The translations under genes and the position numbers were made by a program. A DNA stretch of 64,000 bases from a virus, in the IMG/VR virus record IMGVR_UViG_3300010938_000281, positions 1 to 64,000 of that record; one strand, given 5' to 3'. Each line of letters starts with the position of its first letter. The stretch's first letter is position 1. Under the pieces are notes generated by a model, which saw only the letters and a program-made list of their open reading frames with translations, was not told the DNA's origin and searched no databases. Below are positions 3,113 to 48,732 of the stretch, piece after piece.

Positions 3113-4237
3113 ATGGCTATATGTTGTTATGCTAGAAGTTCATCTTTGAAATCTTGGGAATATTGTCAACAACAGTATTTTATTGATTATAATCTTGGTA
3201 TTAAGCAGCCGGGTAACAAGAAGGCTGTTATGGGTACAATCACCCATAAGGTTCTTGAATGGCTTGCTATGGCTAGATTAAATCATAACGATGATAAGAT
3301 TAAATTTTTTGATGATTCGCTACAGGAAGAACTGGAGATTTGTCCGAAACAACTAATGGAAGTTACTACTTTAGAAGATAAAATAGTAAACGAAATTAAC
3401 AAGACTAGGGCTAATAAACAAATCTATAAGACGGGTTCTATACTACCATACGGTTCTCGGCGTATCGGATATTCTGTGGTAAATGATTTGGTTGTTAAAG
3501 CCTTTAATCACTACTCAGCCAAGAGTCCTTATGATTGGACACTTACAGACCTTAAGAATTGTGGTAACTGGACATGGATGGCTCTTGAGTGGGGAGACGG
3601 ATATTATGACCCTCGAAAAAGAAAGATAGTTTCTTCCGAGTGTTCGTTTGATATGCCAGTAGAGTGTGATTGGGGAAGCTATGAATATACACACAACAAC
3701 AAAAAAATTTCTGGAAAATTTGCAATAAAGGGCACAATTGACTTGATTACCGAAGTCGATTGTGATACACTAGAAATAATCGACTGGAAAACCGGTCAGA
3801 GGGTTGATTGGGCGACTGGAGAAGAAAAGACCTATAGTAAACTATGTGAGGATAGTCAGCTTGCATTATATCATTATGCAGCAACGAAACTATTTCCTAA
3901 ATATAAGCATATTATATTCACTATATTCTTCATTCGAGACGGCGGTCCTTTCACTATCGTGTTTGATATAGATAATCACGCGAAAGTGGAAGAAACATTA
4001 AAGAACCATTTTGACGATGTTAGGAATACAAAACTTCCTAAGATGTTATCACCACAACAGAAAGATTTTAGATGTACCAAGCTATGTTCGTATTATAAGA
4101 ATATGTGGCCTGGAACAGACCAAAATATTTGCAGATTTATCCATAATGAAATAAAGCGTATTGGTATTGATAGTGTAATTGATACATATAAGCAAAGTTC
4201 GCACACGTTTGAAAAGTATAACAGTCCAGGAGAATAA
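3113..4237 (+). CDS. RecB/Cas4-like PD-(D/E)XK nuclease
   Basis: 374 residues with the RecB-family nuclease core: GTITHKVLEW near residue 40 (motif-I-like His), GTIDLI near 205, IIDWKTGQ near 222 (the D-x-K pair) and QLALYHYAA near 249 (the QxxxY motif). One Cys near the N-terminus (WEYCQQQYF) and a Cys cluster near the C-terminus (CTKLCSYY and a later C) resemble the four-cysteine arrangement that holds an Fe-S cluster in Cas4 and AddB. Likely an exonuclease for recombination or end processing. No Cas genes are nearby, so a CRISPR role is not suggested. Confidence 0.75.
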   Translation: MAICCYARSSSLKSWEYCQQQYFIDYNLGIKQPGNKKAVMGTITHKVLEWLAMARLNHNDDKIKFFDDSLQEELEICPKQLMEVTTLEDKIVNEINKTRANKQIYKTGSILPYGSRRIGYSVVNDLVVKAFNHYSAKSPYDWTLTDLKNCGNWTWMALEWGDGYYDPRKRKIVSSECSFDMPVECDWGSYEYTHNNKKISGKFAIKGTIDLITEVDCDTLEIIDWKTGQRVDWATGEEKTYSKLCEDSQLALYHYAATKLFPKYKHIIFTIFFIRDGGPFTIVFDIDNHAKVEETLKNHFDDVRNTKLPKMLSPQQKDFRCTKLCSYYKNMWPGTDQNICRFIHNEIKRIGIDSVIDTYKQSSHTFEKYNSPGE

Positions 4238-4262
4238 TGTAATATGAGAAACTAGGTAGTAT

Positions 4263-5201
4263 ATGCAAAAAGTATTATTATTATCATGCGTGGTAGGATT
4301 ATGCTTACTTATATCTTCTACAATGGCAGATATGCCCGATGTAGAGTTGCATACTAAGTGTTTATACCCGGTAGTAAAGATTCTTTTATCTGATGGTGGT
4401 GGTGGTTCTGGAGTAATTGTTAGGTCTTTCAAAGTTAAAGAGGGAGAATATACAAATATAGTTATTACCGCCGGACATATACTAACGCAAGATATTGAGG
4501 TACTTGTTCCTAAATATGAGAACTGGTCTGTTCTAAAAGAGTATGTTAAGTATCCGTGTGGTATAGTAACTGCATCTAATAAATACGATTTAGGAATCGT
4601 TGCTTTTTATAGCAAAGAACCAATGTATACGGCTAATATTGATTTTACCGCTAAGTATTACATAGGGTCTAAAATTATAAAGATGGGGTATGGGGTATTG
4701 GACGAAGCTAGGTTGGACAGTGGAGAAATTACGTCTGTAAAATTTGCTAGTAAAGACTTGTTTAAGGATTGTATTCGTATGAATAATCCAACCACGTTGG
4801 GGGATTCGGGTGGGCCGTGCTATCTACAAAGTAGTAATAAACTTATAGCAATAAATCGCGGTATGAGAACTTATAACGGTCAAGGTCTTCCACATCACGC
4901 ATTTGCTACTCCTATTACATTTTTACAAGAGTGGAATAAAGAACAGGGTAACACACTAAACTATACGTTTGATACGAATATACCTGTAAATATAGATATA
5001 AAAGCTGCAAATAATAATTATATGGTTTTATTATTAACCAATCAGATTAACGATATAAACAAGAATATTGAGTCGTTAATTATGAAGCGTAATTTGATAA
5101 TAGAGAAAATGGGACAGATAGTAAATAATGTAGAACCTATAATACCAGAAGTTGACCCCGGCGAACCAACAGATGGTGTTCCGCCACCACCTACAGAATA
5201 A
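4263..5201 (+). CDS. Exported trypsin-like serine protease
   Basis: 312 residues. The first about 22 form a classic signal peptide: a basic MQK, hydrophobic LLLSCVVGLCLLISS, then a small-residue site near TMAD. The chymotrypsin-fold triad is visible as H72 in ITAGH, D109 in KYDLGIV and S182 in GDSGGPC. The C-terminal about 80 residues lack protease motifs. They contain a probable coiled coil (INDINKNIESLIMKRN) and a Pro/Glu-rich tail. It sits between the nuclease and polymerase genes. A secreted or periplasmic protease in a phage replication operon is unusual. It might act on envelope proteins or competitors. Possible host origin. Confidence 0.8.
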   Translation: MQKVLLLSCVVGLCLLISSTMADMPDVELHTKCLYPVVKILLSDGGGGSGVIVRSFKVKEGEYTNIVITAGHILTQDIEVLVPKYENWSVLKEYVKYPCGIVTASNKYDLGIVAFYSKEPMYTANIDFTAKYYIGSKIIKMGYGVLDEARLDSGEITSVKFASKDLFKDCIRMNNPTTLGDSGGPCYLQSSNKLIAINRGMRTYNGQGLPHHAFATPITFLQEWNKEQGNTLNYTFDTNIPVNIDIKAANNNYMVLLLTNQINDINKNIESLIMKRNLIIEKMGQIVNNVEPIIPEVDPGEPTDGVPPPPTE

Positions 5202-5225
5202 TTTGATAATTTATTAGGACAACAA

Positions 5226-6611
5226 ATGATTCCATTGAATAATCATACTCACTACTCACTACTGCAAGGCTATTGTAAACCGGCCAAACTAGCAAAACTT
5301 GCTGGCGAGTTGGAATATAACTCTATAGCTATATCAGATATAGATAGTCTGTCTGGTACTGTTAACTTTATGGACTCTTTAGAAAAGACCGGCATCAAAC
5401 CTATTATTGGTACTAAGTTACCGTATGTTGATGGCGGTTATATTTTTTTGATAGCTAAAAATTTAACGGGGTGGAGAGAGCTAATCTGTCTTAATCAGGT
5501 TATTACATCTGGTGAACTAATTAACGACCCTATGCTTAAAACTGCAAAAAATTGCGTTTGTATAACCGGAGATGTTGGAAGTACCCTGTTTTCATATCTA
5601 GTTAAGCAGAACTCTGTTTTTGCTTCCACAAATCCTACACACTCATTATCCTTCTACCTACGGGATGAGTATAATAGAGTAATCTACGAACATTTATCAA
5701 AACTAAAGACAATCTTCAAAGATGACCTATATGTAGGAATACAAAGATGTAACCAAGTCTCTATACCTATTGATAAAATAGCTGCCGATATATTTGAATA
5801 CAACGCTAGTTGTGTAGGTATTAAAACCGTAGCCCTAAATAATACATTTGTCCATAAAGAGTCTGAAATGGAAGAGTTGCAGATTCTACTTTGCTCTAAG
5901 GAAAAAAGTAAATTCGCATCAGTTAAGGATAGAATTCAAACGGACGAGAAAGCTAATTTATACCGCTTCTTTAACGATAAGAATTTCGCCCTTTATTCAA
6001 AAGATTATTATAAACAAATCTATTCTCCAGAACAAATTGCTGTAACACAAGAAATCTCGGATAAGATAGAGAACTTTACTCTACTAGCCAATCCTAAAGC
6101 TCCAAATTTTGTATGTCCAGATGGTATGTCTCAAAAAGACTATTTGTTACACTTGTGCAGGGCCGGTTGGCAAAGAATTCTTCCTCGTATTGACCAAAAT
6201 AGAACACAAGAGTATGTTGATAGAATCAAGCACGAGCTTGATGTTATTAACCGTGCTGCTATTGAGGGTTATTTTTTGGTTGTACAAGATTATGTTAATT
6301 GGGCTAAAAATGAAGGTATGTTAGTTGGCTGTGGTAGAGGATGTTTTACGCCAGATTCTAGGGTTAAAATGTCTGATGGGCTATTTTGCCCTATATCATT
6401 AGTTAATATTGGTGATAGAATTATAGATGCTTATGGTTTTATACAGACAGTGTATGATATTTTGGAATATGATATAAGCGAAGAAATTGTAGAGTTAGAA
6501 TTTGAAAATGGTAAAATAATTAGATGCACAAAAGACCATATGTTTTTAACAGACCGTGGATGGGTGGAAGCTATAAATCTAACAGAAGATGATAATATTA
6601 AGGATGTTTGA
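5226..6611 (+). CDS. dnaE: DNA polymerase III alpha (DnaE) piece 1: PHP domain and start of palm, fused to split intein N-half 1
   Basis: Residues 1-372 are the DnaE N-terminus. A PHP-like domain begins NNHTHYSLLQG; the usual TDH metal motif is replaced by SDID, so PHP metal binding is probably incomplete. The palm begins with AIEGYFLVVQDYVNWAK and ends at VGCGRG. At codon 373 (6342) the extein stops at the conserved GRG/SAAG loop and an 89-residue intein N-half follows: CFTPDSRVKM is block A and RCTKDHMFLT is block B with its His. The ORF ends there. Splicing with piece 2 should regenerate the palm. Confidence 0.9.
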   Translation: MIPLNNHTHYSLLQGYCKPAKLAKLAGELEYNSIAISDIDSLSGTVNFMDSLEKTGIKPIIGTKLPYVDGGYIFLIAKNLTGWRELICLNQVITSGELINDPMLKTAKNCVCITGDVGSTLFSYLVKQNSVFASTNPTHSLSFYLRDEYNRVIYEHLSKLKTIFKDDLYVGIQRCNQVSIPIDKIAADIFEYNASCVGIKTVALNNTFVHKESEMEELQILLCSKEKSKFASVKDRIQTDEKANLYRFFNDKNFALYSKDYYKQIYSPEQIAVTQEISDKIENFTLLANPKAPNFVCPDGMSQKDYLLHLCRAGWQRILPRIDQNRTQEYVDRIKHELDVINRAAIEGYFLVVQDYVNWAKNEGMLVGCGRGCFTPDSRVKMSDGLFCPISLVNIGDRIIDAYGFIQTVYDILEYDISEEIVELEFENGKIIRCTKDHMFLTDRGWVEAINLTEDDNIKDV

Positions 6612-7597
6612 TAAAAATACATCCTCGCCAGCATCTTTTCTGTATATAATACTACAGAGGAGATAAAATATGAATACGATTACCTTGAAAAATTTTCAAG
6701 AAATAGATTATAACACTAAAGGGATATCTAATCATAAACTTATAGACTGTATATGTATAAGGTGTAATTCGTCTTTTATATATACATCAGTTAAAAATTT
6801 TATGAAGAACAGAATAACTAATATTGAAAATAAAGTATTGTGGAATACGTGTCATAAGTGCTGGCTTAAAATAAATACTTCAGAATCTAAAGTGTGGATT
6901 GAGAAAAATAGAAAAGCTCAACTTATAGCGCAAAATAAACCAGAACAAAAAATAAAAAACTCTAAAAGGGTGTCGGAGTCTTGGACATATGAAAGGAAAA
7001 TTAAAAATTCCAAATTACTAAAAGATAGGTGGAAAAATGATAAAGATTTTGCTGAAAAAGCATTAAAAAATTTATCTTGGACAAACAAATTAGACGTTAG
7101 TAGATTTAATACTTTATTAAAATCATCTATTGGTATTGGTGGACTTAAGGGTATATATAACAATATTAGATACGATAGTTCTTTAGAATTATCTTTCATA
7201 TTATGGTGTTTTGATAATAGTATAGATGTTCGTAGATACGACCTAGACCCTATTAGATATTTAGATGAAAATAATATAAGTAGATTGTATATACCAGATT
7301 TTATTATTACTAATAATATTATTGTAGAAATTAAGGGTTTTGGAATATATTATCAGAAAAACTTTGATAGAAATATTAAAAAATTCCAAGCCTTAAAGAG
7401 TTGGTGTAAATCTAATAATTTTAATAATAGACTGTTATTAGGCGATGATTTAATTTTGAAGAAAAACTATAAAAGAGCCAGAAAGCTACACCATGAAAAT
7501 AAAAAAGAAAACGCTTATAAAATACAGTGGTAAAGTCCACGACCTGTCTGTTGAAAATACACATTCTTATAATATTGAGGGTTTAGGTGTACATAAT
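6342..7597 (+). mobile_element. Split intein 1 with a free-standing endonuclease gene between its halves
   Basis: The N-half (6342-6608, 89 residues) begins with Cys and ends at a stop. The C-half (7493-7597, 35 residues) ends HN, followed by Ser of the SAAG extein. Between them lies an endonuclease gene. This matches the 'fractured gene' arrangement described for phage sequences in metagenomes, in which a split intein replaces a contiguous intein and the endonuclease is expressed separately. The half sizes are close to those of known fast split inteins of that group such as gp41-1. Extein junctions are inferred from DnaE conservation. Confidence 0.85.
6670..7533 (+). CDS. Free-standing PD-(D/E)XK-like homing endonuclease in split intein 1
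   Basis: 287 residues, Lys/Asn-rich and more AT-rich than its neighbours. An N-terminal zinc ribbon is suggested by CIRC (29-32) and CHKC (61-64). The middle has repeated basic segments resembling nuclease-associated DNA-binding motifs. The C-terminal nuclease core shows SSLELSFILW (E173), PDFII (209-213) and VEIKG (E220, K222). It has its own GAGG ribosome site and a TATAAT-like box at about 6643. It overlaps the start of DnaE piece 2 by 41 bases. It probably spreads the intein by cutting intein-free dnaE genes. All core motif residues are intact. Confidence 0.75.
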   Translation: MNTITLKNFQEIDYNTKGISNHKLIDCICIRCNSSFIYTSVKNFMKNRITNIENKVLWNTCHKCWLKINTSESKVWIEKNRKAQLIAQNKPEQKIKNSKRVSESWTYERKIKNSKLLKDRWKNDKDFAEKALKNLSWTNKLDVSRFNTLLKSSIGIGGLKGIYNNIRYDSSLELSFILWCFDNSIDVRRYDLDPIRYLDENNISRLYIPDFIITNNIIVEIKGFGIYYQKNFDRNIKKFQALKSWCKSNNFNNRLLLGDDLILKKNYKRARKLHHENKKENAYKIQW

Positions 7598-8356
7598 TCC
7601 GCCGCCGGATGTTTAACTTCATATCTTCTTAATATTACAAGTATTGACCCAATCGTATACGGTTTAATGTTTGAAAGATTCTATAATGAGGGTAGAAACT
7701 CTCCAGGTAAAACCTCTTTCCCTGATATTGATGTAGACTTTCCGGTATTTGGAAGAGAAAGGGTTATTGAGTATATTAGACAGAAGTACGGTAGAAACCA
7801 AGTATCTCAGATATTTACACTGCAAGAAATTCAGGGTAGGAGCGCCATTCGAGAGGTTCTTAGAGTATACGCCGCTTGCCCACAAGAGTTTATTAACGAA
7901 ATCAGTAAAAAGTTGCCACAAAAAGCATCTATTGCTGATAAACTGGAGGAAGCTAAAGAAACCTCAATCATTCGTTGGACATTAGAAAACGAACCAGATA
8001 TTCTTAAAGATTGGTGTGAAATCAAAGATGACGAGCTTGTTGGAGAGTATGCTTTCTATTTTGATAAAGCTATCCAAATCGAAGGAACCTTCAAAGGTTA
8101 TGGTAAGCACGCATCCGCAGTAGTTATTGCAAATGAACCTATTGCCGGTATATGTCCTATGGTTAAAGATAAGAGTTCAGACGAGTTCATTGCCGCTATT
8201 GAATATGAAGAACTAGAAAAAATGGGACTTATGAAAGTAGATATTCTCGGTTGTATTTCGCTAGATAAGTTGGCCGCTGTAAACGACTTACTTCAATTCG
8301 GAGAAATTAGAGGTATTGTATCTCAAGAAAACGGTGAAAACACCTCTGAGGAATAG
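7493..8356 (+). CDS. dnaE: DnaE piece 2: split intein C-half 1 fused to catalytic palm
   Basis: Residues 1-35 are the intein C-half (blocks F and G, ending GVHN); Ser36 begins the extein SAAGCLTSYLLNITSIDP. The piece carries the whole catalytic triad of the C-family polymerases: the two aspartates of PDIDVDF (residues 77-83) and the third in MKVDILG (D250). It ends at 287 in the linker just past that motif, with no intein signature at the C-terminus. This is the essential catalytic fragment but cannot be complete without pieces 1, 3 and 4. Translation starts inside the endonuclease gene with a weak ribosome site. Confidence 0.9.
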   Translation: MKIKKKTLIKYSGKVHDLSVENTHSYNIEGLGVHNSAAGCLTSYLLNITSIDPIVYGLMFERFYNEGRNSPGKTSFPDIDVDFPVFGRERVIEYIRQKYGRNQVSQIFTLQEIQGRSAIREVLRVYAACPQEFINEISKKLPQKASIADKLEEAKETSIIRWTLENEPDILKDWCEIKDDELVGEYAFYFDKAIQIEGTFKGYGKHASAVVIANEPIAGICPMVKDKSSDEFIAAIEYEELEKMGLMKVDILGCISLDKLAAVNDLLQFGEIRGIVSQENGENTSEE

Positions 8357-8443
8357 TTTGAAAAATTAGCTATAAAATCACCGTACCCGACAGGAAACTT
8401 GTGTTCTAATAATAGAAGTATTATTTTACACATGGAGACTGTT

Positions 8444-8981
8444 ATGAAAAAAAATACAAATAACAAAAGATGCGATTTACGACCTTTACATAGATAAAGG
8501 GTTAACGGCAGAACAAATAAGTAAACAGATGAACGTATCTAAAAGCACAATCTATAATAGAATATTTAAGTACGGGATAAAAAGAGACTTCGTTTCAAAG
8601 TATATTGGTAAAAAATTTGGAATGATTACAGTTATTAAACCGTTAAGCACCAAAACCAAATGGAACCACAGAGAGTTTGAATGCTTGTGCGATTGTGGTA
8701 TTATCAATGTTGAGAATATGTAAAGAAAATAAATTTAGCTGCGGTTGCGTACAAAAACGAAAGTTGATATAAATGTGAAAGTTTCAAAGTCACAAAGTAA
8801 ACAAAAATTAAGAACAGCGTCGTTAGATAGAATTGATAGTACAAAAAACTATACTATTGATAATATACAATGGGTTCACAAAGACGTTAATAAGATGAAA
8901 ATGGATTTTTCTCAAGAATATTTTATAGAAATGTGTAGATTGGTAACACTAACTTGTAAGGATAAACAAAATGTCACATAA
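8444..8981 (+). pseudogene. Decayed HNH homing endonuclease
   Basis: The gene starts ATG then A8. With A7 the frame reads a helix-turn-helix-like segment (LTAEQISKQMNVSKSTIYNR), then CDCG. It shifts again near 8720, where a second frame has SCGCVQKR. It then resumes near 8745 as SLDRIDSTKNYTIDNIQWV, the hallmark C-terminal HNH segment of phage endonucleases. At least two frameshifts and a deletion of the central HNH core are needed, so it is inactive. It lies immediately after the point where DnaE is broken between pieces 2 and 3. Confidence 0.7.
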
Positions 8982-9246
8982 GTCGGATTTGCACAAGGCT
9001 TTAGATACTATGACAAGACTTGGTATTGATGTGGAGTACGGTCCACTAACACTATGTAATCTTGGACATTTCTCTATTACAAGAAATATCCTTGAGCGTA
9101 AGTTTCAAGTAGACTGCGATTCTGCCGAGATTAGATTTACTCAAATGTATAATAACTACTATACAGCTATTGATAAATTTATATCTCTATACGCCGCTCT
9201 AAAGAGTAAAGAGATGCAACTAGAATTAAAGGAGAAGAAAAATTAA
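8971..9246 (+). CDS. Unknown 91-residue protein
   Basis: Starts at ATG 8971 inside the end of the HNH relic and ends with TAA overlapping the ATT start of the next gene. Helical prediction by eye: HKALDTMTRLG, then a beta-like LTLCNLGHFSI, then a long amphipathic helix (NNYYTAIDKFISLYAALKSKEMQLELKEKKN). I recognise no family. Its tail contains the AAGGAG that serves the HD-domain gene, so the two are translationally linked. Confidence 0.55.
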   Translation: MSHKSDLHKALDTMTRLGIDVEYGPLTLCNLGHFSITRNILERKFQVDCDSAEIRFTQMYNNYYTAIDKFISLYAALKSKEMQLELKEKKN

Positions 9247-9802
9247 GGTTGGTACAAAAAGTCTTCTTTTTGGAGCGCATCAGTTTGTTATCCATCCTTT
9301 AATTGTATCTTACTGCTATATTAAACTGTATGGTTGGACTTGGGATTGGCGTATATGGCTTTGCTTTTTTATCCATGATTTGGGATATTTAGGTTGCGAC
9401 AATATGGACGGTGATGATGGATTTGAAAAGAGGGGTGGAAAGTGGCATCCGCTAAAATCTTATATGTGGTTAATGGATTGGGGAATGAAGAAAACCGCCT
9501 GGTTCTGTGTCTATCATTCAAGAACTATAGCTAATGAAATGAGCTTTATGGATGGTGCTAATCTATCAAGGTTGGCCGTAGCAGATAAGTTGGCTGTAGT
9601 ATACACACCATTATGGATGTATTGTAAGCAAGAACTTCATGAGTATATGATTATGGAAGGATATAATTTATCATTTACGTTGTGTAAATCTAGTCTGCTA
9701 TATTATAATTTATGTACAAGTTGGAAAACAATGGTTGATGTTAAGTGCTTGAAATTTGTACAAGAGTGGAAGGATAAAGCATATGATATCGGACAATATT
9801 GA
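9242..9802 (+). CDS. HD-domain protein (predicted phosphohydrolase), apparent ATT start
   Basis: The conserved-looking region begins IKVGTKSLLFGAHQFVIHP, then FFIHDLGYLG (the HD pair), CVYHSR and AVADKLA, the order of HD-family metal ligands. No ATG or GTG is available upstream of the HD motif: an in-frame TAA sits at 9227 and the first ATG is past the motif at about 9404. AAGGAG lies 7 bases before ATT at 9242, which would give MKVGTKS. An ATT start is therefore the best model (a later TTG at 9380 would cut the HD site). Probable nucleotide or dNTP hydrolase; substrate unknown. Confidence 0.7.
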   Translation: MKVGTKSLLFGAHQFVIHPLIVSYCYIKLYGWTWDWRIWLCFFIHDLGYLGCDNMDGDDGFEKRGGKWHPLKSYMWLMDWGMKKTAWFCVYHSRTIANEMSFMDGANLSRLAVADKLAVVYTPLWMYCKQELHEYMIMEGYNLSFTLCKSSLLYYNLCTSWKTMVDVKCLKFVQEWKDKAYDIGQY

Positions 9803-9943
9803 TAAATTAGAGGACGTGTGGAAAAGCGCATTATATCCATCAACAGAACAGGATAAGATAAATGCTGAAAAGTTATGGGGGAACTTGATGCTGATGGTAT
9901 GTATCTATTAGAAAGTATCCGTACAGGACTAAAGCCCGTATAA
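9783..9943 (+). CDS. Small unknown ORF(s), probably one frameshifted gene
   Basis: ATG 9783 gives 42 residues (MISDNIDKLEDVWKSALYP onward, stop at 9909-9911). A second frame from ATG 9875 gives MGELDADGMYLLESIRTGLKPV. Joining at the G5 run at 9877-9881 would produce a more natural single helical protein. A third frame, open to 9984, reads RINVSVENGIVTDIL, so the gene may have decayed in two steps. No known family. Between 9944 and 9994 I see nothing else. Confidence 0.35.
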
Positions 9944-9994
9944 ATGTTAGTGTGGAAAATGGGATAGTTACAGATATTTTGTAGGATAAAAACT

Positions 9995-10576
9995 ATGATA
10001 TACAACAATATTAAACAGGGTATTATAGATTGTAAAAATTGTCCATTATCCGAACAACTAGATTATGGTTGTATGCCTGTATGGGGTGCTGGTAGTAAGC
10101 TGGCGGATATTTTAATTCTTAACCTAAGAGCCTCACAAGAGGCTCATTTAATTGAGAAGCCTATCGAAACAAAATATTCACTACTACTACACAAGATACT
10201 CGAAAAGTCCGGCCTGGAAGATAAAAATGTATTTGTAACAAATCTATTGAAATGTAAATGCGATACTACTCCAGCCAAACCTTTTAAGGCCAATCTGGAA
10301 ACTTGTAAAAGGTCATGGTTGTATAAAGAAATAGAGTGTATTCCTAGTATTAAAAGTATCTTGGTTATGGGTAAGAATACATTACAAAGATTTCTTGATA
10401 ATAAAATGGATATAGATGAAGTTAACGAAATTACATATAGTGTGAACGGTCTGCGTGTTTTTGCTACATATTCGCTCGAAGAAATATTTCGCAAAGGTTC
10501 TGTTTATATGGACCACTCAGTTAAAATTCTTAAGAATATAAGGGATATAAATGCTAAAATCGAAACTTCAAGGTGA
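9995..10576 (+). CDS. Uracil-DNA glycosylase-superfamily protein with altered active site
   Basis: 193 residues resembling the Fe-S (family 4/5) UDG fold: CKNCPLS near residue 13, GAGSKLADILIL near 31, FVTNLLKCKC near 82 (typical VYITNVVKC position) and a C near 100, then ILVMGKNTLQRFL. The first catalytic motif, normally GEAPG, is NLRASQEAH here. A simple water-activating Glu is therefore missing or displaced and uracil excision is uncertain. Four cysteines for the cluster remain. It could be a repair enzyme with other specificity or a DNA-binding derivative. It overlaps the next gene by 26 bases. Confidence 0.6.
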   Translation: MIYNNIKQGIIDCKNCPLSEQLDYGCMPVWGAGSKLADILILNLRASQEAHLIEKPIETKYSLLLHKILEKSGLEDKNVFVTNLLKCKCDTTPAKPFKANLETCKRSWLYKEIECIPSIKSILVMGKNTLQRFLDNKMDIDEVNEITYSVNGLRVFATYSLEEIFRKGSVYMDHSVKILKNIRDINAKIETSR

Positions 10577-11027
10577 TGAGGTAGAAGACACTCTTGTATC
10601 GGTATTAAGTAAATTTGGACAAACACAAAAAAATACAGAATATGGACTTAGATATGAGTATGATGTTGAGTGTAATATTTCTGATGGAAAAGTAAACTAT
10701 AAACTAACATTTGAGTGTAAGAACGACGTTATGGCAAAAAAAACAGGCAACGTCGCAATAGAATATCACAATTCTAAGAAAAATGAACCTTCTGGAGTTT
10801 CGAGAACCTCTGCTGTATTTTGGGCGCATAAAATCGGGGGAATTATCTGGATTGTGTCTGTTAAAGCGTTGAAGGATTTTATTGATGTCACAAAGCCGGT
10901 TAAGGTTATAGAGAGCGGCGGCGATGATAATGCTAACTTACTAATTTACCGTATTGATGATTTTACAACAATCTGTAAACCTTTAGAGGAGTTTCAACAT
11001 GCGAACGATTTTATTGATATGCTTTAG
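10551..11027 (+). CDS. PD-(D/E)XK-like nuclease
   Basis: 158 residues. The core reads YEYDVECN (about 37-44), then LTFECKN (about 54-60), matching the D-(15-20)-E-x-K pattern of restriction-like and resolvase-like nucleases. The following VAIEYHNSKKNEPSGVSRT resembles the region after the catalytic Lys in phage Holliday-junction resolvase-like or recombination nucleases. A role in recombination or branch cutting during replication is inferred from context. It overlaps the next gene by 29 bases. Confidence 0.55.
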   Translation: MLKSKLQGDEVEDTLVSVLSKFGQTQKNTEYGLRYEYDVECNISDGKVNYKLTFECKNDVMAKKTGNVAIEYHNSKKNEPSGVSRTSAVFWAHKIGGIIWIVSVKALKDFIDVTKPVKVIESGGDDNANLLIYRIDDFTTICKPLEEFQHANDFIDML

Positions 11028-11316
11028 TCTTATTACTACTATTGGATTTGCCGGTGGCCCACATACTGGGCCGGGGGGCACTTCTCTTCATCGTAATATA
11101 GGAATTGCTCCGTATGGTACGGGGTATGTAACACAGAACGTATTTGGAGGTCGGGATTACTACGACTTACACTCTCGTCGTTTAGGATATAGTAAACCAT
11201 ATGGTAGCGGTTATAAATACTACAATAGAAACGGGGCTTATATTATGAGGTCTAACGGTGGTAGAGTATACGTTAATCCAAACGCTCCACAATACATGCC
11301 GTTTCTAGGAGAATAA
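10999..11316 (+). CDS. Small secreted Gly/Tyr-rich protein
   Basis: 105 residues. A signal peptide is clear: MRTILLICFSLITTIGFAGG, with likely cleavage after FAG or nearby. The mature part is rich in Gly, Tyr and Asn (GRDYYDLHSRRLGYS, GYKYYNRNGAY, GGRVYVNPNAP) with no Cys. The role is unknown. Together with the protease at 4263 it makes two exported products in the early region, suggesting changes to the host envelope. Confidence 0.6.
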   Translation: MRTILLICFSLITTIGFAGGPHTGPGGTSLHRNIGIAPYGTGYVTQNVFGGRDYYDLHSRRLGYSKPYGSGYKYYNRNGAYIMRSNGGRVYVNPNAPQYMPFLGE

Positions 11317-11322
11317 TATCGT

Positions 11323-12027
11323 ATGAATTTGAACAATATAATTGTCTACGATTTTGAAACGGGAAGTAAAAATCCAAATCTAACACAGGTTACTCAGTTA
11401 AGCGCGGTGGTGCTAGACCCGCGCACGTTTACAATGATTGAAGGGGCGGTATTTAATACAGAAGTAAAGCCAATTTTTGATGATGAAAAAGCTCTAGCCG
11501 CCGGATTGGAACCGGTTCAACAAGAAGCTCTTGATATAACAAGAAAAACAAGAGAAAGGTTGGAAAAAGCTCCAACAATTGATGTGGTGTGGCCCGATTT
11601 TATTGCGTTTACTGAACGTTATAAAAGTGGCCGTCGAACAAGTAACTGGGATAATGTAATAGCTGCCGGTTTTAATATCGTTAATTTCGATTCTATAATT
11701 ATCAATAGGCTATGTAAACAATATGGACCTTATGATGATAAGTATTCATCTCAGAAAATATTTCATCCAGTTTATTGTATAGATATCATGCACGATATTT
11801 GGCGATGGACCGATAATGAAAAAATTAACAGCGCCAACTCAAAAAGCCTAGACTCTGTGCGCGAGTGGTTAGGAATGCCTAAAGACGGCGCTCACGATGG
11901 TCTTAATGACGTTCTCGACTGTGCAGAATTGCTTAAGAGGTTTATGGAGAAATATAGATTCTTCTATAAGAAAACCAAGTTTGAAGGCGCTATGGCCGGA
12001 TGGAAACGTCCAGAGGTGAAGGTATAA
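11323..12027 (+). CDS. DnaQ-like DEDD 3'-5' exonuclease (likely proofreading subunit)
   Basis: 234 residues with all DEDDh motifs: YDFETG (D10, E12; ExoI), GFNIVNFDS near residue 122 (ExoII Asp) and AHDGLNDVLD near residue 189 (ExoIII His and Asp). It sits directly upstream of DnaE piece 3 with a 26-base gap to ATG 12069 after overlap removal. DnaE polymerases lack their own proofreading exonuclease, so this protein probably supplies it in trans. Intact motifs suggest activity. Confidence 0.8.
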   Translation: MNLNNIIVYDFETGSKNPNLTQVTQLSAVVLDPRTFTMIEGAVFNTEVKPIFDDEKALAAGLEPVQQEALDITRKTRERLEKAPTIDVVWPDFIAFTERYKSGRRTSNWDNVIAAGFNIVNFDSIIINRLCKQYGPYDDKYSSQKIFHPVYCIDIMHDIWRWTDNEKINSANSKSLDSVREWLGMPKDGAHDGLNDVLDCAELLKRFMEKYRFFYKKTKFEGAMAGWKRPEVKV

Positions 12028-12068
12028 GTAAGATTTTTGTAGAAAAATTTCTAATACGAGGGGTTGAT

Positions 12069-12974
12069 ATGGATTATTCCTTTGAATGCGGTTGTAAGTT
12101 TCCAATAGTGGGCGAAGGAATAAAAGGTATAGATGGTTTACCGCCTATTAAGATTGACTACGAGAATCTTAATCTAAGATGTCCGCACACATGGGAGCTT
12201 TTTGCAAAAGGATATACTAAGGGTATATTTCAACTAGAAACTAATCTAGGACAGGGGTGGTCTAAAAAACTACAGCCGGTTACTATTGAGGAAGTTTCGG
12301 CGCTTACAGCTATATTGAGACCTGGGATGTTGAAGTCAATGTTAGACGGAAAGTCTATGACCCAACATTTCGTAGATAGAAGAAATCTACAGGAAGATTT
12401 TACCTACTTCCACCCTCTTGCCGAACCAATTCTTTCGGAAACTCACGGTACAATGACGTATCAAGAGCAAATTCTTTCTATTGCTAAAATATTTGCCGGT
12501 TTCAGTCTACAGCAGGCCGATACTCTTCGTAAAGCTATGGGTAAGAAAAAAGCGGACGTAATGGCTAAGTGTCGTGAAGAGTTCGTAACCGGATGTAAAA
12601 ATATGGCTATCATTACAGATGATGATGCTATAGCTTTATTTGATATTATTGAAAAGTCAAATAGGTATTCGTTTAATAAGTGTATATCTCCCAATACAGT
12701 AGTATCAACTAAAGATAGAGAATTTATAACAATAGATGATTTAGCTATAGGCTCACAGATTCTTTGTCCGTCAGATATTGGTTGTACTGATACATACTAT
12801 GAAGTTATAAATAAATACGAAAATGGTAATAAAGAACTATACGAGATAGAGGTAGAAAGCGGGAATAAAATAGAATGTACCTTAGACCACGAGTTTTTGT
12901 GTGAAGACCTAGTTAAAAGACCTTTAATAGATATTTTGTCAGAAAATAGAAAAATAATGGTAGAAGATGATTGA
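12069..12974 (+). CDS. dnaE: DnaE piece 3: fingers region fused to split intein N-half 2
   Basis: Start at ATG 12069, preceded by GAGGGG; an ORF extension to 12000 overlaps the exonuclease and is unlikely. After a short Cys-containing lead (FECGCKFP) the DnaE sequence resumes at CPHTWELFAKGYTKGIFQLE, followed by ILRPGML, YFHPLAEPIL, MTYQEQILSIAK and RKAMGKKKAD, all conserved in bacterial DnaE. The extein ends at YSFNK, and intein block A begins CISPNTVVS at 12681, with block B CTLDHEFL. The N-half is 97 residues. It joins piece 4 by trans-splicing. Confidence 0.9.
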   Translation: MDYSFECGCKFPIVGEGIKGIDGLPPIKIDYENLNLRCPHTWELFAKGYTKGIFQLETNLGQGWSKKLQPVTIEEVSALTAILRPGMLKSMLDGKSMTQHFVDRRNLQEDFTYFHPLAEPILSETHGTMTYQEQILSIAKIFAGFSLQQADTLRKAMGKKKADVMAKCREEFVTGCKNMAIITDDDAIALFDIIEKSNRYSFNKCISPNTVVSTKDREFITIDDLAIGSQILCPSDIGCTDTYYEVINKYENGNKELYEIEVESGNKIECTLDHEFLCEDLVKRPLIDILSENRKIMVEDD

Positions 12975-13277
12975 AGTTGACGGAGATTATTAGCATTCTA
13001 ATCCTAAAATATATCCAAACGGTCCAGTAACAACAATCCAAAAAAGAAACGGTTGTATTCAAAACAAGAAGGATAAATATTGTTTAGATAACAATCATAA
13101 GATTATTAGATTTTGGGAATCAGATATAATTAATAATATTGAGTATATAAAAGGGGTAATATTATGCACGCTGAAAGAATAGTATCTATTAAGTCTATAG
13201 GAGTACGTAGATGTGTAGATATAGAGGTAAATAGTAAACGTCATATTTTTTATGGTAATGGATTAGCAACCTCAAAC
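12681..13277 (+). mobile_element. Split intein 2 (FNK/SHA site) with dead endonuclease between halves
   Basis: N-half 12681-12971 (97 residues, Cys1) and C-half 13164-13277 (38 residues, ending TSN, +1 Ser). The penultimate His seen in many inteins is Ser here, as in some active inteins. The halves are separated by only about 190 bases containing a relic of a Vsr-like endonuclease. The insertion point is in the KSHS motif of DnaE, three residues after the point used by the cyanobacterial split DnaE intein. Sequence of the halves differs clearly from intein 1. Confidence 0.85.
12967..13182 (+). pseudogene. Relic of a Vsr-like (EDxHD-type) homing endonuclease
   Basis: In the frame of ATG 12967 the DNA reads MIEVDGDY, then TAG at 12991-12993, then HSNPKIYPNGP, and further on KKDKYCLDNNHKIIRFWES and DIINNIEYIKG. 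This is the C-terminal signature of Vsr-like homing endonucleases associated with fractured genes (E-VDGDYWH, followed by RFWE.DI). The TAG replaces the expected Trp (TGG). The N-terminal part is missing, so the gene is dead. It overlaps the ends of both intein halves. Confidence 0.7.
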
Positions 13278-14279
13278 TCACACGCTATTAGCTATGGTCA
13301 AACTGCATATATGTGCGCTATCCCTAAACGCCATTTCCCTTTACACTTCTTTACTGCATGGTTGTCATATGCTGGTGGTAAAATGAAACCTAGAGAAGAA
13401 ATTGCGGAACTAATACAAGAGACAAAGAATTTTAATGTTTCTGTGGAAAATCCAAACATTTCCTATAAAAATCAAAATTTTGTTCTCGATAATGGTAAAA
13501 TAAGATACGGACTAGGCTCTATTAAATCTTGCGGCGCTGCGGAAGTGTCTAAACTTTTAATACTCCTACAAGATACCGAGAAAAGACTTGGTAAGAGCGT
13601 TAAAGATTTTACGTGGCATGAATTACTTACTAAGGTTTTACCATACTCAAGGAAAGATGTTGTTAATAACTTAATACACGCTGGTGCTATAAGCCAACAC
13701 GGCCTTACTAGAAACTATATGTTGTTTCAATATAATAAAATATGCGAGCTTAACGATGCGGAAATAGAGTGGATTAACAAAAACTCTAACTGTAATTCGC
13801 TATATGATGATATAGAGAATATGATACTTAATAAGAAAACAGTAGCTAAAAGAAAAGAAAAACTGAAAAATCTGCTTACTTCATTAGCAAATCCACCCCT
13901 TAATTTAGATGATTCTATTGATGTTATAGCGAAAAGAGAAGAAGACGTTTTGGGTATATCCTTATCTTGTTCGCGACTTGATGCTAAAAATACCGGATTT
14001 GTTAATTGTACTTGTTTAGAGTTTAACAGGGGAGAAAAAATCAATAAAGTTATTATTGCCGTCCAACTTTCTCGTGTCACGGAATGGTCTCCTAAAGGTT
14101 CTGATAAGAAACTTTGTTTTTTAACGGGATACGATAAAACCGGCAAGATAGATATAATGGTCCCACACCAAGAATATGAGAAGTTTTCATTCTTATTGTT
14201 TAACGGAAACACCGTTGCAATTCATGGTAGTATAAACGCTAAATCTAATCTAACAGCAAAGGTGATAACACAACTATGA
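13164..14279 (+). CDS. dnaE: DnaE piece 4: split intein C-half 2 fused to polymerase C-terminus
   Basis: Residues 1-38 are the intein C-half; Ser39 begins SHAISYGQTAYMCAIPKRHFP, the conserved DnaE fingers helix. It is followed by the usual C-terminal elements: YGLGSIKSCG (DnaE helix-hairpin-helix region), VVNNLIHAGAI, and an OB-like domain near the end (ITEWSPKG-type segments, VTEWSPKGSDKKLCFLTGYD). It ends with ATGA overlap on the next gene. Its ribosome site is GGGG about 8 bases upstream of ATG 13164, inside the endonuclease relic. Confidence 0.9.
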   Translation: MHAERIVSIKSIGVRRCVDIEVNSKRHIFYGNGLATSNSHAISYGQTAYMCAIPKRHFPLHFFTAWLSYAGGKMKPREEIAELIQETKNFNVSVENPNISYKNQNFVLDNGKIRYGLGSIKSCGAAEVSKLLILLQDTEKRLGKSVKDFTWHELLTKVLPYSRKDVVNNLIHAGAISQHGLTRNYMLFQYNKICELNDAEIEWINKNSNCNSLYDDIENMILNKKTVAKRKEKLKNLLTSLANPPLNLDDSIDVIAKREEDVLGISLSCSRLDAKNTGFVNCTCLEFNRGEKINKVIIAVQLSRVTEWSPKGSDKKLCFLTGYDKTGKIDIMVPHQEYEKFSFLLFNGNTVAIHGSINAKSNLTAKVITQL

Positions 14280-25332: not shown

Positions 25333-25808
25333 AACTAGGTATATTTTTACCGTCGTTAGGATACAATCAAAACGCAATTCAGGCTATAAGTAGTGTGAAT
25401 ACTTTGATAGGTATTGATAATACTATATACCCGACACTTTTCTATAAACGTATTGACGCTTTTAGGCTTAGACCTAAAACTATCGCTACAACATTTGATA
25501 AAATATATCAGTATGATGGTCACTTGATTACTACTAACCTAGATACAACATATATAGCTTTACAGTGTAATAGATTAAAGTCAATTAACTTTTATGTATC
25601 AGAACTAGAGTGGACTCGTAGAATAGGGAACTATCTATCAAATAGTTCAATCTATAGAAATAAAAATGTAAACTTAATCTGTCCAAGTGCAGAATATGCC
25701 GTAGCATTAGATAATTACTGCGGTGTTAAGGTTCAAGATATTATCACAGGATTTAACATCTATGAAATCGTTACTAGAATTCGCGCCAGAAATACGCAAA
25801 ATGTATGA
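25329..25808 (+). CDS. Unknown, possible glycosyltransferase N-terminal-like protein
   Basis: Start at ATG 25329 (ATGA overlap with fcl). About 159 residues: MKLGIFLPSLGYNQNAIQAIS, then ATTFDKIYQYDGHLITTNL, SINFYVSELEWTRRI and NLICPSAEYAVALDNYCGVK. It has Rossmann-like alternation as in GT-B N-domains, but no donor site. It overlaps the endonuclease gene by 47 bases, so its C-terminus might have been replaced when that gene inserted. Confidence 0.45.
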   Translation: MKLGIFLPSLGYNQNAIQAISSVNTLIGIDNTIYPTLFYKRIDAFRLRPKTIATTFDKIYQYDGHLITTNLDTTYIALQCNRLKSINFYVSELEWTRRIGNYLSNSSIYRNKNVNLICPSAEYAVALDNYCGVKVQDIITGFNIYEIVTRIRARNTQNV

Positions 25809-26529
25809 GGATGAAAAAAAGAGTATAAGAGCTATTGCAAAAACATTTGGAACATATCCTGTCGCAATATATCGTACTCTGGTTGGTCTCGGTGTTAAAA
25901 TTAGAGATAAGTCCGACGCAGCTAAGGAAGCTCTATCTAGCGGGCGAGCAGTGCATCCGACACAGGGTAAGAAATTATCTACAGCTACAAAAAATAAGAT
26001 TGGTAACAGTGTTGCTAATGCGTGGGATAATATGTCGGAAGTAAAAAAAGAAGCTATCTCTGATAAACATAAAGAAATTTGGAAGGATAAAACCGACGAG
26101 GAAAAACAAGAACTATCCAAGAAATCTCATAAAGCTATTGCCGAGTCTGCCCGTATAGGCTCTAAGATGGAAAGATATCTTGTTGACGCTGTAAATGGCG
26201 CTGGATACCAGTGTTTTCCGCATGTAAAAATTTTGCAAAATCTCAATTTGGAAGTAGATTTATGTTTACCAAATCTCAAAATTGCTGTAGAATTAGACGG
26301 CCCTAGCCATTTCTCTCCAATTTGGGGAGACGATATATTTGCTAAAACCAAAGAGGCTGATAGAGAAAAAAATGGTCTTTTGGCCCTTAACGGATATAAG
26401 GTTATTAGAATAGTTTATACTAAAGGACACGTATCTAATGTACTTAAAGAAAAGACCTTGAAGTTGTTGATTGAGAAAATCGAAGAAGCTAAAGAGTCTT
26501 CTGAGAATCTATTTATCGTTCATGTATAA
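25762..26529 (+). CDS. HTH plus Vsr-like PD-(D/E)XK endonuclease
   Basis: Start ATG 25762 (an ORF extension to 25723 is out of context). Residues about 10-45 are an HTH of the resolvase/AsnC type (EIRKMYEDEKKSIRAIAKTFGT). A Lys/Ser-rich linker resembling nuclease-associated modular motifs follows. The C-terminal nuclease reads SKMERYLVDAVNGAGY (Glu), LEVDLCLPNLKIAVELDGPSHF (D, and E-x-D) and VIRIVYTKG. This is the Vsr/EDxHD-like fold found in phage homing endonucleases and related proteins. Motifs intact. It sits between the glycan block and the recombination-like genes. Confidence 0.65.
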   Translation: MKSLLEFAPEIRKMYEDEKKSIRAIAKTFGTYPVAIYRTLVGLGVKIRDKSDAAKEALSSGRAVHPTQGKKLSTATKNKIGNSVANAWDNMSEVKKEAISDKHKEIWKDKTDEEKQELSKKSHKAIAESARIGSKMERYLVDAVNGAGYQCFPHVKILQNLNLEVDLCLPNLKIAVELDGPSHFSPIWGDDIFAKTKEADREKNGLLALNGYKVIRIVYTKGHVSNVLKEKTLKLLIEKIEEAKESSENLFIVHV

Positions 26530-28489: not shown

Positions 28490-28705
28490 ATAGAAGATTC
28501 TGAATATCAATTTTCTTAGGAAGACGAGATTGTCTTTAATCATACGCGTGGTTTCATCACGAAAATCGAGGACGACCTCTTTAGGCTGATAGCTTATTTC
28601 GAGAGCGAAAATGAGAAGAAGTACGGCCATAAATATCATATTCCGGCTCCAACAGAACTAAATGAAACTTTGGGAGTAAGACATGAAACAAAGATGGTTA
28701 GATGA
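28490..28705 (+). pseudogene. Small protein remnant with ATA start position and in-frame TAG
   Basis: AAGGAG lies six bases before ATA at 28490; the frame reads EDSEYQFS, then TAG at 28517-28519, then continues EDEIVFNHTRGFITKIEDDL and LIAYFESENEKKYGHKYHIP to a stop at 28703. The second part looks like a genuine helical protein but has no ATG. Either a double lesion (start and stop) or a dead small gene. It overlaps the following HNH gene start. Confidence 0.4.
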
Positions 28706-29531
28706 TGAAATTAAGTATATAAAAGATAACTATGAGAATATGACGTGTGCAGAGATGGCTACTAATATTGGTAGAACTACAAAATCTATACAACATATGT
28801 TTAATAAGCTCGGCCTTAAGAGACGTTCCGCTCAGGTTGGAGATATTATAAAGGGGTGGGAGATAAAAGAGATATATATCAAGGATTTAGGTTCTCAGAA
28901 TGTGCGAATGGCTAGAGTTGTGTCTACTTTTGGAGATGGTAAAGAGGCTCATTATAGATTAACCAAACTAACACTTGGTCAAGTTGGATATCCCGATGGT
29001 AGAAGACCAGACCTTACAGAAAAAAATACCACACATGGAGAATCAGAAACTAGGTTATATAGGATATGGTCCGGTATGAAGAATAGGTGTTCTAATATAA
29101 AAACCAAGGCATATCCTGATTATGGCGGTAGAGGAATAAATATATATGATAAATGGTTAGATTTTATCGTATTTAGAGATTGGGCAAATAGTAACGGATA
29201 TAATAATAGTTTAACAATTGATAGAATAGACGTAGATGATAATTACGAACCTGATAATTGTCGCTGGGTAACTAGGTCCGAACAGGTGGATAATAAAAGA
29301 AACTCTTCAAGTATAGAGCTTACAGCATTTGGTGAAACAAAATCGGTTTATAAGTGGTCAAGAGATACAAGGTGTTCTGTTAAACCTTGCGTTCTTATTT
29401 ACAGATACAATACCGGTTGGAAACACGAAGATGCTATAGTCAAACCTCCACAACGAAAAACAAAAGAGCCACTACTAGAGTGGCTCCAAAGAAAATATTC
29501 TAATATATACCAAGAATGGTTATTAGAATAG
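28683..29531 (+). CDS. HNH homing endonuclease
   Basis: 282 residues with GGGAG upstream. The N-terminus is a Myb/SANT-like HTH (WLDDEIKYIKDNYENMTCAEMA, then TTKSIQHMFNKLG). The HNH region is RLYRIWSGMKNRCSN, YGGRGINIYDKW, then LTIDRIDVDDNYEPDNCRWV (DR-D-N signature). The C-terminal segment (TAFGETKSVYKWSRDTRC) resembles the DNA-binding AP2/NUMOD-like part. Apparently intact. It stands at the convergent junction between early and late blocks, after the terminator. Confidence 0.85.
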   Translation: MKQRWLDDEIKYIKDNYENMTCAEMATNIGRTTKSIQHMFNKLGLKRRSAQVGDIIKGWEIKEIYIKDLGSQNVRMARVVSTFGDGKEAHYRLTKLTLGQVGYPDGRRPDLTEKNTTHGESETRLYRIWSGMKNRCSNIKTKAYPDYGGRGINIYDKWLDFIVFRDWANSNGYNNSLTIDRIDVDDNYEPDNCRWVTRSEQVDNKRNSSSIELTAFGETKSVYKWSRDTRCSVKPCVLIYRYNTGWKHEDAIVKPPQRKTKEPLLEWLQRKYSNIYQEWLLE

Positions 29532-48019: not shown

Positions 48020-48732
48020 TTTTTGGACTCCTTAAATTGAATGTACTGCTCTTTAGTATTATCACCATAACCATATGTACGATGAAATTCGACATGGCAC
48101 GACTTACAAAGACAAACGCCATTATTTACGTCGAATCTTTTTTCTATATATTTATTCCAAGCGTCTAAATGATGAGCGCAAATTTTACAATTAGTTTTAC
48201 TACATATATTACAGGTATAATTATATTTTTTATATATTTCTTTGGTCCACATTTCAGATTCTAATATACCACGTTTTGTTCTATCAATAGAATCTCCAAG
48301 ATAACTTGGATGGTTTATACCCTTTTGAAACGGATGTAACTGTAATAATCTATTTATAGCTATCTCAACATCTAAACACCCACAAGATTTAGTATTATTA
48401 TTTATTATACGATTTAATGGTACTTTACATGTTTTTCCACAGTCACATTTACATATCCAAACAACAGAACCTCCAATTCGACTATTGGTAAATTCTATAG
48501 CTGTAAGCTTATTAAATTTCTTACCAGATATATCTTTCGGTCTTCCTCCACCATTTAAGCATCCACAGGATTTTGTTAGACCGCAAGCAACACTCTCAAA
48601 ACAAGACGTAAATATATTACCACAAAAACATGTAAAATTATGTTTAGCTTTTTTATTTATATAATTACCAATAAGTTTTAATCCTACCGACCCAATTCTA
48701 TTTTGAGCTTCTATCTGTGTTAATTTCTTCAT
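48001..48732 (-). CDS. HNH homing endonuclease inserted upstream of the tape measure gene
   Basis: 243 residues. Two zinc knuckles (CFCGNIF with SCGCLNGG; CKCDCGKTC with SCGCLDVE) are followed by a classic HNH nuclease: YTCNICSKTNCKICAHHLDAW, then VNNGVCLCKSCHVEFHRTYG (His-His and Cys pairs). An intrinsic terminator lies just upstream on the same strand. Its end overlaps the tape measure start by 19 bases and contains that gene's AAGGAG, so the insertion preserved or reshaped the ribosome site. Appears intact. Confidence 0.85.
   Translation of the reverse strand: MKKLTQIEAQNRIGSVGLKLIGNYINKKAKHNFTCFCGNIFTSCFESVACGLTKSCGCLNGGGRPKDISGKKFNKLTAIEFTNSRIGGSVVWICKCDCGKTCKVPLNRIINNNTKSCGCLDVEIAINRLLQLHPFQKGINHPSYLGDSIDRTKRGILESEMWTKEIYKKYNYTCNICSKTNCKICAHHLDAWNKYIEKRFDVNNGVCLCKSCHVEFHRTYGYGDNTKEQYIQFKESKKLLVLF

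Follow-up and report, generated by a model that had tools for sequence, protein, structure and literature searches.

A C-family DNA polymerase encoded in four open reading frames with two split inteins in an uncultured phage

Organisation of the polymerase locus

The stretch of DNA analysed here (the window) comprises bases 1–64000 of the 90,511-base virus record IMGVR_UViG_3300010938_000281, itself a fragment. It contains a DnaE gene, coding for a C-family DNA polymerase, that is spread over four open reading frames (ORFs) on the + strand, starting at positions 5226, 7493, 12069 and 13164 (Table 1). The ORFs carry consecutive DnaE segments, which we call pieces 1 to 4. In order of Pfam domains, piece 1 holds PHP and the start of PF07733, piece 2 the remainder of PF07733, piece 3 the fingers domain PF17657 and piece 4 HHH_6 and OB. 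The positions matched in the NCBIfam profile PRK05673 run on through all four pieces, so that nearly no DnaE residues have been lost or duplicated. PHP, a palm with the DxD motif and a third catalytic Asp, fingers, HHH and OB are all present, as in other C-family polymerases. Unlike in a single-chain DnaE, palm and fingers are encoded by separate genes: pieces 1 and 2 make up chain A and pieces 3 and 4 chain B. The computed positions of the catalytic Asp codons (7730 and 7736 for DxD, 8240 for the third Asp) all fall in piece 2 and hence in chain A.

Piece 1 ends with the N-half of a split intein (IN1) and piece 2 begins with the C-half (IC1), the junction being GRG|SAAG (site 1). Pieces 3 and 4 carry the halves of a second split intein, IN2 and IC2, at FNK|SHA (site 2). 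IN1 starts with CFTPDSR and ends with DNIKDV, followed by two stop codons; between IN2 and IC2 there are stops in all frames. With the NCBIfam cut-offs set at 24.5 bits for intein_Nterm and 15.6 bits for intein_Cterm, IN2 (31.5) and IC2 (17.4) score above and IN1 just under. Comparing the joined halves with solved inteins gave the Spl DnaX mini-intein as the best match of intein 1 (8.5e-7), followed by NrdJ-1, and a gp41-1-like intein as the best match of intein 2 (1.4e-8), followed by Npu DnaE. Both inteins keep Cys1, the block-B T-x-x-H, the block-F region, the C-terminal Asn and the +1 Ser, splicing residues that are also kept in the relatives examined. Homologues of IN1 with an identical split position occur in the related contigs L029, L041, L127, L139, L178, L202, L203 and L210, IN2 is 38–51% identical to IN2 of L012, L013 and L017, and IC2 is 42–55% identical to IC2 of relatives. 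Both pairs are predicted to splice in trans and may do so orthogonally. The two inteins share 30% identity in their N-halves and 26% in their C-halves, and their charge patterns are alike (–11/–13 for IN, +3/+3 for IC); orthogonality is therefore not settled from sequence alone.

Table 1. Features of the DnaE locus, in window coordinates
Feature	Position	Strand	Evidence
Piece 1 extein, PHP and beginning of palm region	5226..6341	+	PHP 6e-16, PF07733 4e-14; PRK05673 7-366
IN1, N-half of split intein 1, 89 amino acids	6342..6608	+	intein_Nterm 22.6 bits; Intein_splicing 2e-5
RNA hairpin, 12 base pairs, AT-rich loop UAUAAUAC, burying the HEN1 Shine-Dalgarno	6633..6664	+	fold z = -4.9 for 6600-6675
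HEN1, free-standing endonuclease gene within break 1	6670..7533	+	PF08722 TnsA-like N 28.1 bits (cut-off 26.5); alignment A3
IC1, C-half of split intein 1, 35 amino acids, ending GLGVHN before SAAG	7493..7597	+	60-77% identity to IC1 of five relatives
Piece 2 extein, remaining palm region, natural C-terminus of chain A	7598..8353	+	PF07733 2e-48; PRK05673 366-570; alignment A2
HNH homing endonuclease gene, decayed, directly after chain A	8357..8981	+	46% identity to intact HNH gene of L029, E 2e-14
DEDD 3'-5' exonuclease gene between chain A and chain B genes	11323..12027	+	RNase_T 1e-6; phrog_192 DNA polymerase exonuclease subunit 1e-25
Piece 3 extein, fingers domain at the beginning of chain B	12069..12680	+	PF17657 DNA_pol3_finger 4e-44; Taq Pol III alpha 640-816, E 3e-32; PRK05673 568-752
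IN2, N-half of split intein 2, 97 amino acids, starting CISPNT after FNK	12681..12971	+	intein_Nterm 31.5 bits
HEN2 remnant, last ~65 codons, one in-frame stop	12967..13179	+	59% identity to HEN2 of L017, E 1e-23
IC2, C-half of split intein 2, 38 amino acids, ending GLATSN before SHA	13164..13277	+	intein_Cterm 17.4 bits
Piece 4 extein, HHH and OB domains at the end of chain B	13278..14276	+	HHH_6 5e-8, OB 7e-7; PRK05673 751-1050

The four-ORF DnaE with two split inteins is confirmed. The initial annotation had read consecutive DnaE segments in the four frames, and coordinates, domain order and profile positions agree with it. Its placement of intein halves at the two junctions is borne out by the intein profiles, the matches to solved inteins and the conserved intein blocks that it had proposed to check. 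With two different split inteins present, its expectation that two trans-splicing events are needed and yield two chains also stands, as does the location of the catalytic triad in chain one. It had overlooked the HEN1 ORF in break 1, the HEN2 remnant in break 2, the decayed HNH gene and the exonuclease gene. The end of piece 2 (CISLDKL), tried as the start of a third intein, was rejected, since alignment A2 identifies it as a normal palm end. An Rfam search of the window, L029, L041, L017 and Bacillus phage G returned no intron at the gathering threshold, and joining of the pieces by intron splicing is thus unsupported.

The product of HEN1 combines a zinc-finger-like CxxC...CxxC with a PD-(D/E)XK-like motif, of which E173, PD210 and ExK220-222 are invariant in five homologues (alignment A3). 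It is a candidate PD-(D/E)XK-like nuclease, with a PF08722 score barely above the cut-off. The single-sequence P0004 scan gave no match; alignment A3 as query did. An AlphaFold model of HEN1 built from five sequences was discarded at a predicted local distance difference test (pLDDT) score of 40. The hairpin at the HEN1 start site recalls the control of phage intron endonucleases, and a second hairpin (6601–6625) overlaps the IN1 stops. Regulation of the endonuclease gene by the former is only a lead: its structure is weaker in L041, none was detected in L127 and L178, and a general role was dropped because it is not conserved in all relatives.

HEN2, reduced to a remnant in the window, is intact at site 2 in L012, L013, L017, L202 and others; from its conserved pattern in alignment A5 it is probably Vsr-like (EDxHD). 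The decayed gene after chain A retains an HNH motif (8814–8969) in a broken frame, and its intact counterpart lies at the same place in L029. In L029 it is HEN1 that has shrunk, to about 24 codons (E 5e-11), and in L210 the HEN1 matches are split over two frames. The start codon of IC1 lies inside the HEN1 ORF, an overlap also present in the relatives examined, and in most relatives read the C-precursor starts within the 3′ end of the endonuclease gene. This suggests that endonuclease remnants persist as the start region of the downstream gene.

Palm–fingers fission and spread of the inteins among relatives

Homology scans that used pieces 2 and 3 and a palm-segment alignment as queries yielded the related loci, some contigs being sampled twice. 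Palm and fingers lie on separate ORFs in all 161 assessable loci of the first two homology scans (87/87 and 74/74), which argues that the break between pieces 2 and 3 is an old gene fission and not a splicing site. The gene order in split loci is PHP-palm, DEDD exonuclease, fingers-HHH-OB. Scored by script, the exonuclease gene lies between the chain A and chain B genes in 158/161 loci (84/87 and 74/74); in the three scored as not between, it overlaps the end of chain A. Chain A terminates just past VKFDILG, just after the third catalytic Asp, in all relatives (alignment A2), and the lengths and ends of both chains are uniform across relatives. Chain B of many members starts with a conserved F-[DE]-CGC-x-F (window 12069–12098; alignment A4), missing from some, which may be a metal site or a contact with chain A. 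Chain B of L014 was predicted as a complete unit (pLDDT 88.6), and the model resembles the C-terminal half of the DNA polymerase III alpha subunit (Pol III alpha) over ~540 columns with a best E of 6e-23; against 7pu7 the template modelling score was 0.68. In the first tree the split group forms one branch with a support of 100/100. By this comparison the break between pieces 2 and 3 is a clade-wide fission at the palm/fingers boundary, and the two intein breaks appear as recent, sporadic additions.

Two contigs fetched later through endonuclease scans, L203 and L229, encode palm and fingers in a single ORF downstream of the exonuclease gene, which indicates that the two halves belong to one enzyme. 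A first reading of these as intact ancestors was dropped. The tree nests them within the split group, which would mean re-fusion, and an approximately unbiased test of placing them outside it (p 0.23) did not reject this, permitting either course. Palm and fingers are contiguous in the named phages examined (Y1, B1VFA, NiceHouse, MTATph1 and MT835570), and in Microbacterium phage OverHedge DnaE is split elsewhere, between PHP and palm. The exonuclease had no match in the named phages; its alignment met weak matches only in bacterial genomes (20–32% identity), and no host or prophage was identified by it.

The intein breaks are scattered over this group. Ten other contigs have an intein at site 1 together with HEN1 or its remnant (L029, L041, L049, L127, L139, L178, L202, L203, L206 and L210), and nine close contigs have one at site 2 with HEN2 (L012, L013, L017, L202, L229, L230, L231, L232 and L233), as do the more distant L234–L236; these tallies come partly from scans with endonuclease queries and are not frequencies. 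In the sets gathered by homology only, site 1 is broken in 3/89 and 3/80 loci, and site 2 in three loci, all of them in the first set. L202 repeats the double plan of the window with both endonucleases intact, in the order E1-IN1, HEN1, IC1-E2, exonuclease, another ORF, E3-IN2, HEN2, IC2-E4 (E1 to E4 being the exteins). In L237 (3453–9862) DnaE is divided over three ORFs and has two split inteins, the first next to the catalytic DxD and the other at FNK|SHS, sites partly different from those of the window; two HEN2-like endonucleases are encoded there as free-standing genes. L127 combines the site-1 fracture with a contiguous HNH-motif intein in chain B at a third insertion site, RPG|C (3673–6018). 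The exteins of L029 and L041 are 99%/96% identical and their IN1 77% identical, and the near relative L028 has no intein, which suggests that the elements move separately from the gene.

A side observation concerns the distant DnaE of L234 (4791–6189) and L236 (4444–6179), where PHP-like, exonuclease-like and polymerase-core ORFs are three neighbouring genes, another layout with an exonuclease between the halves.

These comparisons modify what the initial annotation had expected. The polymerase is indeed in two chains, but not through breakage of this locus, given the clade-wide fission with an exonuclease gene between. Among the relatives, which it suggested searching for intact dnaE, only L203 and L229 have palm and fingers in one chain, and all 161 loci found earlier have two genes. 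Its statement that no replicase was known to be built in this way is not supported: the double arrangement recurs in L202, the DnaE of L237 is in three pieces and also has two split inteins, and a split minimal Pol III alpha has been published (PMC7824862).

Proposed assembly and alternative explanations

We propose a model in which an uncultured phage group would encode its C-family replicase as two genes, chain A (PHP and palm) and chain B (fingers, HHH and OB), separated by the gene for a proofreading-type exonuclease. A homing element may then have invaded each of the two, the PD-(D/E)XK-like endonuclease with intein 1 entering the chain A gene and the Vsr-like endonuclease with intein 2 the chain B gene. 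Each of the four ORFs would be translated independently into one of four precursors. IN1 would pair with IC1 and IN2 with IC2, presumably free of cross-splicing, and trans-splicing would ligate the exteins into chains A and B, which would associate non-covalently as the replicase, probably together with the exonuclease. HEN2 would have been deleted except for its 3′ end, probably retained because the downstream precursor has its ribosome-binding site there. Without the split inteins no polymerase could be made, which would explain their retention. As a whole, this combination of a two-gene DnaE replicase, two split inteins, trans-splicing and pairing of chains A and B is the best explanation, and we consider it highly probable. 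The wider proposal seems reasonably probable to us: a large uncultured phage group would use as its only replicase a two-subunit C-family polymerase with palm and fingers on separate proteins, which in some members would become active only after two mutually exclusive trans-splicing reactions, requiring four precursors.

Some observations weigh against this model. There is no beta-clamp match in the window's own record, and IN1 scores slightly under the curated intein cut-off (22.6 versus 24.5 bits). The record, at 90.5 kb, is a fragment, and a further polymerase elsewhere is possible; the long extein branch of the window is also compatible with relaxed constraint. The last two points would equally suit a decaying gene, in which the four ORFs would be remains of a former gene and replication would fall to the host replicase or to another polymerase, as would the decay of two neighbouring endonuclease genes. 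We nevertheless find decay unlikely. All four polymerase pieces have stayed open next to endonuclease genes that did not, with catalytic, splicing and junction residues kept, and no other polymerase family was found: PolA and PolB (Pfam) had no match in the window's record or in 12 related contigs of 119–244 kb (13 records).

About as improbable is a scenario in which just one intein works, or the halves cross-splice, and an active polymerase arises from fragments held together without full ligation. The shared acidic-N/basic-C charge pattern and the ~30% identity of the two pairs would allow for this, and naturally split inteins differ widely in efficiency (PMC11923092). However, the relatives examined retain the splicing residues, a study that looked for cross-reaction among 16 inteins found 15 of them to be mutually orthogonal (PMC7090010), and a product of N1 with C2 would lose the palm. 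That the gene is in fact contiguous, its breaks being an artefact of assembly or frameshift, is very improbable, even though the source is a metagenome contig and a nearby pair of primase ORFs is interrupted near a poly-A run (1140–1150). The same breaks with separate endonuclease genes recur in contigs from many different metagenomes, the stops in every frame between IN2 and IC2 do not fit a contiguous gene, and the repetition of the double arrangement in L202 speaks against an assembly artefact.

Comparison with known systems and other genes of the window

The arrangement of the locus is reminiscent of the 'fractured' genes that Dassa et al. are said to have described in 2009, in which split inteins reportedly occur with free-standing endonucleases. 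As there, a split intein interrupts a conserved phage gene for DNA synthesis, and the gene of a free-standing endonuclease separates the two parts. At both sites of the window the coding region is split with the N- and C-halves of an intein at the ends, and between them lies an intact HEN1 at site 1 and, at site 2, a remnant in the window and intact genes in relatives. HEN2 presumably resembles the Vsr-like endonuclease family described with fractured genes. On its tested features, which are those of the sequence, the locus is a fractured gene, doubled in one replicase. In contrast to the fractured genes known before, one replicase is fractured twice, independently, and its endonucleases come from two unrelated families, HEN1 being PD-(D/E)XK-like; endonuclease loss has occurred at both sites (site 2 in the window, site 1 in L029); and the underlying polymerase is already two genes.

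Comparing the window with the cyanobacterial split DnaE (Npu/Ssp) reveals DnaE in trans-spliced halves in both, predicted for the window, and a similarity to intein 2. The cyanobacterial intein inserts close to the same FNKSH motif as intein 2. Whereas the cyanobacterial DnaE has one split intein, one final chain and no endonuclease, the window has two split inteins and would have two final chains. Bacillus phage G likewise spreads DnaE over several ORFs (gp329, gp331 and gp339), with an intein at GRG|SAAG and an adjoining homing endonuclease gene. However, the gp329 intein is contiguous, and the sequences read hold no intein halves at the other breaks. In this locus (NC_023719.1, 239245–250008; L200) the endonuclease is gp330, and gp331 is separated from gp339 by ~5 kb of other genes. 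Rhodococcus phage NiceHouse gp90 shares the DnaE intein at FNK|SHA, there as a contiguous mini-intein in one intact gene. In Pseudomonas phage MIJ3 a split intein and a free-standing HNH endonuclease likewise interrupt the gene of a replicative polymerase, but this is a PolB of the B family with a single fracture (PMC6892783).

The nearest published split Pol III alpha we found is the minimal one of group 2.2 jumbo phages, whose C-family core is likewise on two separate proteins (PMC7824862). That version lacks the other Pol III domains, its genes are at distant sites and a PolB is present alongside. The window, on the other hand, keeps PHP, HHH and OB, its genes flank the exonuclease gene and no PolA or PolB was found.

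Relative to known fractured genes, the new elements are that the fracture occurs twice, that two endonuclease families are paired, that endonucleases have been lost and that the polymerase beneath is encoded by two genes. The locus is predicted to be a natural example of an enzyme on which two split inteins act, and it offers two candidate orthogonal intein pairs. Together with its relatives it captures endonuclease loss in fractured genes at different natural stages, both endonuclease genes being intact in L202 and one deleted in the window and in L029. A phage group whose Pol III alpha is split precisely at the palm/fingers boundary would also allow the function of these domains as separate subunits to be tested.

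Elsewhere in the window, a DnaB-type helicase (1–898) is truncated by the record start, its frame open to base 1. A primase-like zinc-finger part (831–1163) and a TOPRIM part (1223–1960) lie in different frames, with a poly-A run at ~1140–1150; the change of frame could be a frameshift, an error or a real split. By eye, three more ORFs resemble homing endonucleases (25723–26529, 28683–29531 and 48001–48732), one of them DUF559/Vsr-like and two HNH-like.

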